Positions 22,403 through 23,861 of a DNA stretch of 53,364 nt are shown here, piece by piece; position 1 is the stretch's first letter, and every line of letters begins with the position of its first letter. The stretch lies in the NCBI GenBank assembly GCA_946481965.1, contig CAMLPN010000010.1:1-53364 (forward strand), in the 5' to 3' direction. The notes below the pieces were generated by a model that saw only the letters and a program-made list of their open reading frames with translations, did no database searches and was not told the origin of the DNA. Origin of the DNA: an uncultured Neisseriaceae bacterium. Its GTDB lineage: Bacteria > Pseudomonadota > Gammaproteobacteria > Burkholderiales > Neisseriaceae. A program made the position numbers and the translations under genes.

Positions 22403-22439
22403 CAAAAAATAGCGCAATTTGTCATTTGACAAATTGCGC
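22403..22439 (-). terminator. terminator of the PAS/PhnD-like unit
   Basis: Perfect 12-bp arms GCGCAATTTGTC (22412-22423) and GACAAATTGCGC (22428-22439) with a 4-base loop. On the minus strand the hairpin leads into TATTTTTTG. It lies 35 bp past the PhnD-like stop and only about 20 bp before the DusC-like start. Confidence 0.85.
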
Positions 22440-22474: not shown

Positions 22475-23224
22475 CTAATCACGTAACGTTTCAATTATAT
22501 CGATCAGCAATTCTATCTCTTCCTGACTCATTATGCTAAAACCTTCTTCAAGCCCCAGATCATTTAAAATAGCTTGACCATCTTCAGACTGATTTAATGT
22601 ACAAAACACTCGCTGCAACATTTCCAGCATAGCTACTTGTCTGGGATGGATTAATACTACATGATGTAAATCATGAATTTTACTTTCTATTAAAGTAGTC
22701 AAATTACTGCGGGTAAAATTGGTCAGTTTTTTATAAGCTGAAGCCAAAAATAAACCAATGTGAGCACGTTTTTTGATCAAGCCATTAGCTATTGCAGCAA
22801 ATGAATCGGATTTTTTCCATATAAGATCTTTTTCTTCAATATCTACTGATTCCAATAATCGCAAAGCTAATAATTTAACATCATAGTATTCTGTAGCAAG
22901 TACAGTCATTCCTTTTCTGACATCGGCTAGTTTCTTTATCGGAAAATTTGCAGAAGTGGCAATTACAATTTCATCATAGACATTTACCGGTTGCACTACC
23001 GCCAAATAACCCAATTCGCGTATCAGTTTTGCTGCATCAAACGGATTAGCGTAGATTATATCTACTCTGCCTTGATTAATTTCTTTTTGCTCCTCAGTAG
23101 AATTAGCCGGTAAAAGCAGATGAATATTGACATCAAGCATTTTTTGCAAACGAGCATTCATAAAATGCCAGCCTGCAAAATATTCAGGGGGAAAATCTGG
23201 AGCAATGAGAAAATTGACGGACAT
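22475..23224 (-). CDS. PhnD-like substrate-binding-fold protein without a signal peptide
   Basis: The protein has 249 residues. It has the type-2 periplasmic-binding fold of the phosphate/phosphite/phosphonate (PhnD) group. Signs are the first strand VNFLIAPDFPPEYF, the QGRVDIIYANPFDAAKLIRE block, LADVRKGMTVLATEYYD, and the hinge-return segment near IGLFLASAYKKL. It starts directly at the first strand, so there is no signal peptide or lipobox, and it should stay in the cytoplasm. No ABC permease or ATPase is nearby. Its start overlaps the upstream PAS gene stop by one base (TGATG), so the two are translationally coupled. A ligand-sensing partner of the PAS protein is the best guess. Confidence 0.75.
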   Translation of the reverse strand: MSVNFLIAPDFPPEYFAGWHFMNARLQKMLDVNIHLLLPANSTEEQKEINQGRVDIIYANPFDAAKLIRELGYLAVVQPVNVYDEIVIATSANFPIKKLADVRKGMTVLATEYYDVKLLALRLLESVDIEEKDLIWKKSDSFAAIANGLIKKRAHIGLFLASAYKKLTNFTRSNLTTLIESKIHDLHHVVLIHPRQVAMLEMLQRVFCTLNQSEDGQAILNDLGLEEGFSIMSQEEIELLIDIIETLRD

Positions 23225-23712
23225 CAGTTTCCTCTCTCTGCTTTTAACAAATCCGCATACAGCGCCTGCATTTCTGTGACTTTACTCAAAGAAGGCTTAC
23301 GTCGTACTGACGTGTAACCTTTGATTTTGCCATCGCGAATATTGGGAATAATGGTGGCATAGACCCAATAAAAACCACCATCTTTACGCAGGTTTTTCAC
23401 ATAACCATGCCATTTCTGACCGGTTTGAATGGTGTCCCACAAATCCTTATAAGCAACTTTAGGCATATCAGGATGACGCAGAATATAATGCTCAGCTCCC
23501 ATTAATTCGTCACGATTCCAGCCACTCATTTGCACGAATACTTCATTAGCATGAGTAATAATTCCTGCTAAATCTGTGGTAGAAGTAATTAGACATCCAT
23601 CTGGAAACTGCGTTTCAATATCTGTGCAATATACAGTGCGCTTGACGCCATCATAATGGGTTAACTCAAACGTACGATGAGCGATTTCAGGTACTACCAT
23701 TGGTAAAATCAT
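23224..23712 (-). CDS. single-domain PAS protein, Aer-type
   Basis: The protein has 162 residues, essentially one PAS domain (about residues 35-140). The segments SGWNRDELMGAEHYILRHPDMPK, given as SGWNRDELMG and LRHPDMPK, then LWDTIQTGQKWHGYVKNLRKDGGFYWVYA, given as LWDTIQTGQKWHG and VKNLRKDGGFYWV, match the PAS of the aerotaxis receptor Aer, which binds FAD. There is no membrane segment, HAMP, kinase, GGDEF or methyl-accepting domain. Redox sensing through a flavin is inferred from the family. A good Shine-Dalgarno (TGGAGCCATA) supports the ATG. The PhnD-like gene is coupled downstream, and a perfect FNR-type palindrome lies 136 bp upstream. Confidence 0.85.
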   Translation of the reverse strand: MILPMVVPEIAHRTFELTHYDGVKRTVYCTDIETQFPDGCLITSTTDLAGIITHANEVFVQMSGWNRDELMGAEHYILRHPDMPKVAYKDLWDTIQTGQKWHGYVKNLRKDGGFYWVYATIIPNIRDGKIKGYTSVRRKPSLSKVTEMQALYADLLKAERGN

Positions 23713-23847
23713 TATGGCTCCATAATCAATGGATGATTGAATATTGAATTAATAATTTACAATGTTATCTATTGATAATGAATATTGCTCTTAATTAGCA
23801 ATTAAAACAATAAATTTATTTATTTTTACAGAGAATTTATTGTTTTA

Positions 23848-23861
23848 TTGATTAAAATCAA
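23848..23861. promoter_or_regulatory. FNR/ANR-type palindrome upstream of the PAS gene
   Basis: TTGATTAAAATCAA is an exact match to the TTGAT-N4-ATCAA site bound by FNR-family regulators. If it acts at -41.5 on the minus strand, transcription would start near 23813, about 100 bases before the PAS start. A weak -10 (TAAATA, 23822-23817) is at a fitting distance. Confidence 0.6.

Follow-up and report, generated by a model that had tools for sequence, protein, structure and literature searches.

The window, a stretch of 53,364 nucleotides from an uncultured Neisseriaceae bacterium, carries two coupled genes, one for an Aer-type PAS protein and one for a PhnD-like protein. The genomic link of this pair to the MglA/MglB module, a Ras-like GTPase with its Roadblock-type partners, is strong. 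We propose, with a probability of about 0.7, that the two proteins are cytosolic sensors of FAD redox state and of a ligand, which would tune a Group 3 MglA/MglB switch whose output in Snodgrassella is likely type IV pili.

The PAS and PhnD-like genes of the window

Both genes lie on the minus strand. The PAS gene (23224..23712; 162 residues) overlaps the following PhnD-like gene (22475..23224; 249 residues) by one base, TGATG. An intrinsic-terminator-like hairpin of 12 pairs with a T-rich tail lies 3' of the PhnD-like gene (22412..22439, minus strand, read from 22439 to 22412); it accounts for both matches of the terminator scan, one on each strand, versus 0.8 expected. Sigma-70 promoters were not in excess (7 versus 8.1 expected). 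Inspection by eye of the ORFs listed for 15–31 kb showed neither an ABC permease nor an ABC ATPase of the Phn type. An earlier note made from the letters of the sequence had described an Aer-type PAS gene overlapping a PhnD-fold gene by TGATG, a terminator closing the unit and no ABC transport partner, and the ORF positions, the domain matches and the hairpin bear this out.

The PAS protein, the proposed FAD redox sensor, consists of a single domain (PAS_3 in Pfam, 7e-15), and no HAMP or chemoreceptor signalling domain is present in its 162 residues. Its closest solved chain is the PAS domain of E. coli Aer (2.6e-37). In the Aer PAS-FAD structure, as described in the available part of the report, residues H53, R57, W70, N85, and R115 surround the flavin; R115 lies slightly too far from N5 to bond with it, and H53 and R115 are somewhat uncommon among flavin-binding PAS domains (PMC9668731). 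All five contacts are conserved in 44/44 PAS genes of our alignment (50 rows, from which six cut second copies were left out). The rows were selected at a PAS-profile E below 1e-40, and the conservation therefore describes this family and not PAS proteins at large. The position of Aer M69 is Leu in most rows, the window included. The PAS protein thus appears to have an Aer-type flavin pocket and probably binds FAD.

The PhnD-like protein, the proposed ligand sensor, matches Phosphonate-bd (PF12974) at 8e-25, above the gathering score. This is the only domain returned by hmmscan, and no NCBIfam family matches the protein. The nearest solved chains are ArrX (E 0.001) and AioX (E 0.04), indicating weak similarity. 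An AlphaFold2 model of the protein, made with three named relatives, has a mean pLDDT of 40.9, and no structural conclusion is drawn from it.

In the reading frame of the PhnD-like protein, a stop precedes the ATG by 19 codons, and the residues between are basic, with no hydrophobic leader. The 18 aligned relatives have their starts no more than a few residues from the first strand. None of the 18 has a cationic-hydrophobic start, at most one K or R being found in the first 12 residues, where some starts were picked by hand inside longer ORFs and the absence of a signal peptide was judged from sequence. Among the marks of a PhnD-type periplasmic substrate-binding protein, the Phosphonate-bd domain is present, and the signal peptide and linked ABC transporter genes are absent. 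Judged by its start, the PhnD-like protein is cytosolic and signal-less, as the earlier note had held.

Upstream of the pair lies the FNR box TTGATTAAAATCAA (23848..23861, no strand assigned), centred some 142 nt upstream of the PAS start. It is the sole perfect TTGAT-N4-ATCAA in the window. Taken alone it is mildly unexpected, with 20/100 shuffles of the window holding a perfect box, and one-mismatch boxes occur at chance (6 versus 5.5). Across the genus, an exact box precedes the first pair in 8 of 14 genomes, rising to 12 of 14 when one mismatch is allowed, versus 0.04 and 0.89 expected for those upstream regions from Markov shuffles, the relatedness of the 14 genomes being uncorrected. The half-sites stay and the four spacer bases vary. 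No box was found before the pair in G003 and G004, or within one mismatch at eight second-pair loci of the genus. The box is credible because it is conserved in the genus, and a chance occurrence was rejected solely on that conservation.

The whole genome holds 15 exact FNR sites versus 2 for the reversed pattern. One of them precedes the gene for cytochrome bd oxidase subunit I, and another a HutW-like heme radical-SAM gene (closest to the HutW/ChuW family). The genome also encodes a 246-residue Fnr protein (NCBIfam NF008365, 234.9 bits, cut-off 228) with a CxxC...C cluster and an ExxSR helix, which we take to be the Fnr signature. Two marks of an FNR regulon member, a conserved box and a genomic Fnr protein, are present, and the perfect FNR-type box of the earlier note holds up. 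Expression of the pair is predicted to rise when oxygen falls.

Association with MglA/MglB operons

Among 25 Neisseriaceae genomes (G000–G024), 21 have a PhnD-like gene, and in 20 of the 21 the PAS gene adjoins it or lies one gene away, the exception being G014. The same search covered 16 other genomes of the order and gave no PhnD-like gene in them, although a later one added two genomes of that order. For several genera, a Roadblock/LC7 protein is the product of a small gene located ahead of PAS and PhnD or between them (9e-12 to 3e-15 for the five tested). A Roadblock gene lies about 1 kb from the second PhnD copy of the genus in 9/9 cases; none adjoins the first pair, to which that of the window belongs. 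The GTPase is found in 23/25 Neisseriaceae, including all 21 with PhnD, and the two genomes without it also have no PhnD. All five core genes are held by 10/10 of the Neisseriaceae core operons inspected, with no pair beside them.

At some loci genes are missing or doubled. In the genome of the window, contig C1 still has the Roadblock gene that belonged to the second pair (L039:1448-1810, G000:C1), and the second PAS and PhnD genes have been lost; tblastn detected no trace of them in the 1.4 kb of contig beyond that gene. Tandem PhnD-like genes behind one PAS gene occur at L049:952-2535 (G017:C76) and L207 (G657), which suggests two ligands or a heteromeric sensor.

The core in the genome of the window is on another contig, C4, apart from the pair; Neisseriaceae do not have the pair beside the GTPase operon. 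According to the available text on Group 3 systems, these comprise MglA, one or two MglB, and a receiver-like protein, with Thr in G3 and DAR in G5 of the GTPase (PMC4316618). The C4 core encodes a 491-residue protein that matches TPR weakly and has a hydrophobic stretch at its N-terminus, a 383-residue receiver-like protein, a 178-residue Ras-like GTPase, a 219-residue MglB-1, and a 121-residue Roadblock protein. The GTPase has GTPGQ at G3 (Thr) and a DAR motif at G5, the motifs of Group 3; its G4 is TKMD, keeping the lysine that Group 3 often lacks. The 121-residue protein matches Robl_LC7 at 1.4e-17, and MglB-1 does so weakly (0.02, below the cut-off). The receiver-like protein is in place and is related across operons by a profile built from these proteins; Pfam shows no domain in it.

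The only exact FNR box of C4, at 16471, lies about 450 bases before an mltA-like gene that precedes the core, with no exact box immediately ahead of the core itself. This box could conceivably bring the core under oxygen control. Neighbours of the MglA operon include a PocR-type histidine kinase and genes that by eye resemble those of microcompartment shells (L038:16682-19876, G000:C4).

Outside Neisseriaceae, the pair is part of the operon itself. The usual order is TPR protein, receiver-like protein, MglA, MglB-1, MglB-2, PAS, and PhnD. Roadblock and MglB-1 genes precede PAS-PhnD on the same strand in 16/16 pairs. A GTPase with the MglA Group 3 motifs, its identity confirmed by Pfam and NCBIfam, is in the same cluster in 13/16 (12 on the fetched stretch and a thirteenth elsewhere on the contig, in G244); the contig of G405 ends where the GTPase would be sought. 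TPR and receiver-like genes were seen in 13/16 clusters, the other three stretches ending too early, and all seven families stand together in 11. The profiles for TPR, receiver-like protein, GTPase, and MglB-1 were made from these operons, so that matches there are partly by construction; those for PhnD, PAS, and Roadblock were made from Neisseriaceae only.

These pairs come from two samples. In the class sample, 18 of 368 other genomes match the PhnD-like profile at 1e-20. Fourteen of the 18 have an adjacent PAS gene (in one, G114, the PhnD frame is broken in two); in G357 the PAS gene is only a fragment, and G066, G212, and G320 have a PAS-less PhnD relative in another setting. The phylum sample (398 genomes, that of the window included) adds G657 and G690 with PAS, and G606, where PhnD directly follows Roadblock without PAS. 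The earlier note had asked for a third gene travelling with the pair and would have abandoned its reading for a pair limited to one strain; with 20 Neisseriaceae and 16 pairs in other families the pair is widespread, and the travelling gene is Roadblock/LC7 (MglB).

The GTPase is present in 12/14 class-sample genomes with the pair versus 52/354 others (Fisher 2e-8, relatedness uncorrected). Conversely, no PAS or PhnD relative was found at 24 GTPase loci, mostly best-scoring ones and not a random draw, in 21 class-sample genomes without a PhnD match, and ten of these loci hold all five core genes. The core thus works without the pair, and the pair is an accessory of the core.

Several loci vary in composition. 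A protoglobin gene is inserted between MglB-1 and Roadblock within one operon at L081:4556-5149, and a STAS-PhnD fusion of 463 residues adjoins a Roadblock ORF at L087:5443-7262 (G212:C5). At L085:5406-6643 (G066:C10) the PAS-less PhnD-like gene lies beside an SCP2 sterol-carrier-like gene. At L181 (G357:C347) all operon members are fragmentary, with in-frame TAG stops, indicating decay or poor assembly.

Proposed role and alternatives

Roadblock proteins such as MglB regulate GTPases. Because of this, and because the pair sits directly behind a Roadblock gene, we read the two proteins as sensors. The protoglobin of L081, the STAS-PhnD fusion of L087, and a published globin-Roadblock fusion (PMC4476040, available in part) point to a sensor role too. 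The PAS protein would bind FAD and, like Aer, track the cellular redox state, and the PhnD-like protein would bind a small ligand in the cytosol. Together they would target one or more Roadblock proteins or the receiver-like partner, by contact with Roadblock or GTPase, and so alter the GTPase cycle, whose output in Snodgrassella is likely type IV pilus activity. The genome of the window has two PilT-family genes above the cut-off, which make a pilus output possible. As the pair forms a separate unit behind an FNR box, the abundance of the sensors would rise as oxygen falls.

The earlier note had pictured a cytosolic redox-and-ligand sensing pair that has no output domain and must act through another protein. 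The cytosolic location, the Aer-type flavin pocket, and the conserved FNR box stand, and the need for another protein fits the relatives, which place the pair with the Group 3 MglA/MglB module; the partner that the note had left unnamed is now added. A bolder reading is that a free-standing flavin PAS protein and a cytosolic binding protein make up a redox- and ligand-gated regulator of a Ras-like GTPase, so that the state of respiration would steer type IV pili through a G protein and not through a chemoreceptor or histidine kinase. It is tentative, and we would sooner doubt it than adopt it.

The GTPase is absent from the operon in G186 and G690, with no genome-wide match at E 1e-15. Both clusters (L075, G186:C67:27000-42000; L206, G690:C1:1629000-1643000) keep TPR, receiver-like, MglB-1, Roadblock, PAS, and PhnD genes. 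The GTPase therefore cannot be the sole partner everywhere, and it may not be the only target of the pair. These clusters favour an alternative in which the pair signals to a complex of the receiver-like protein and MglB, perhaps for transcription control, with the GTPase only an added layer; the winged-helix end proposed for the receiver-like protein of Group 3 in the part of that study available (PMC4316618) would suit a role in transcription. However, clusters without GTPase are 2/16, most retaining it, and the proteins scanned with Pfam show no receiver or helix-turn-helix domain. We consider this alternative unlikely, although it is the best of the three weighed here.

Detachment of the pair from the GTPase core in Neisseriaceae could also mean that the two proteins are free-standing sensors with an unlinked output, for example a kinase or a chemotaxis-like protein, the operon link being historical. 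Against this, no PhnD-bearing Neisseriaceae genome is without the GTPase, those without GTPase have no PhnD, and the second copies retain their Roadblock neighbour. This explanation is less probable still.

Least likely of all is that the PhnD-like protein is an enzyme or carrier co-expressed by happenstance. In its favour, MqnA, MqnD, and THI5 are other cytosolic proteins of related fold, the PhnD-like protein is itself cytosolic, and PhnD-like genes occur alone in G014 and without PAS in G066, G212, and G320. Against it, the gene follows signalling genes, hmmscan gives Phosphonate-bd only with no NCBIfam family, and the nearest solved chains, weakly, are the binding proteins ArrX and AioX. 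Sensors tuning the Group 3 switch remain our preferred reading of the pair.

Comparison with known systems

E. coli Aer shares its FAD-contact residues with the PAS domain of the window, according to the available text on Aer (PMC9668731). However, Aer has a HAMP domain and a chemoreceptor part, whereas the PAS protein of the window is free-standing and its genetic partner is Roadblock/MglA. ArrX and AioX are likewise sensory binding proteins of the PhnD fold, but they are named periplasmic binding proteins, whereas the PhnD-like protein of the window is without signal peptide and only weakly similar to them. The pair offers a nutrient-binding fold placed in the cytosol as a possible G-protein sensor. 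In the globin-Roadblock fusion HGbRL, a gas or redox sensor domain is coupled to Roadblock/LC7, as here; the sensor described in the accessible part of that paper is a globin instead of a PAS domain, is fused, and comes without a PhnD part, unlike the pair (PMC4476040).

Full-text searches of open-licence papers gave no account of MglA or Roadblock partnered by a PAS or PhnD protein. The parts are of known kinds; these searches met no paper that joins them as dedicated inputs of a bacterial Ras-like module. Group 3 MglA systems are highly conserved, and the available text leaves their inputs and outputs open (PMC4316618, Wuichet and Søgaard-Andersen 2014). The DAR-motif GTPase and one or two MglB of that group are also present here, with a candidate for its receiver-like protein; the word PAS is absent from the main text of that study and no PhnD-like member is described there, whereas both are recurrent accessories here. 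For Group 3 MglA, the pair supplies candidate inputs, redox state through FAD and a cytosolic ligand.

Snodgrassella, the genus of the window, has, besides one mglA, two mglB that are coupled and an orphan, mglB-3 (PMC11112851, Meng 2024). PAS-PhnD neighbours are not mentioned in the available part of that paper. A variant of mglB-3 led to different soft-agar colony edges and affected competition in bees; according to the authors, all three mglB were beneficial in an earlier transposon data set (PMC11112851). G005 has three MglB-type genes: two lie beside mglA, and the third, at 935.7 kb, adjoins the second PAS-PhnD pair. The latter reads 120 residues, and 121 are given for another species (PMC11112851, as available). 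From this arrangement, mglB-3 should be the Roadblock gene beside the second PAS-PhnD pair, which would place an 'orphan' with a reported effect on bee-gut colonisation in a Roadblock-PAS-PhnD cluster.
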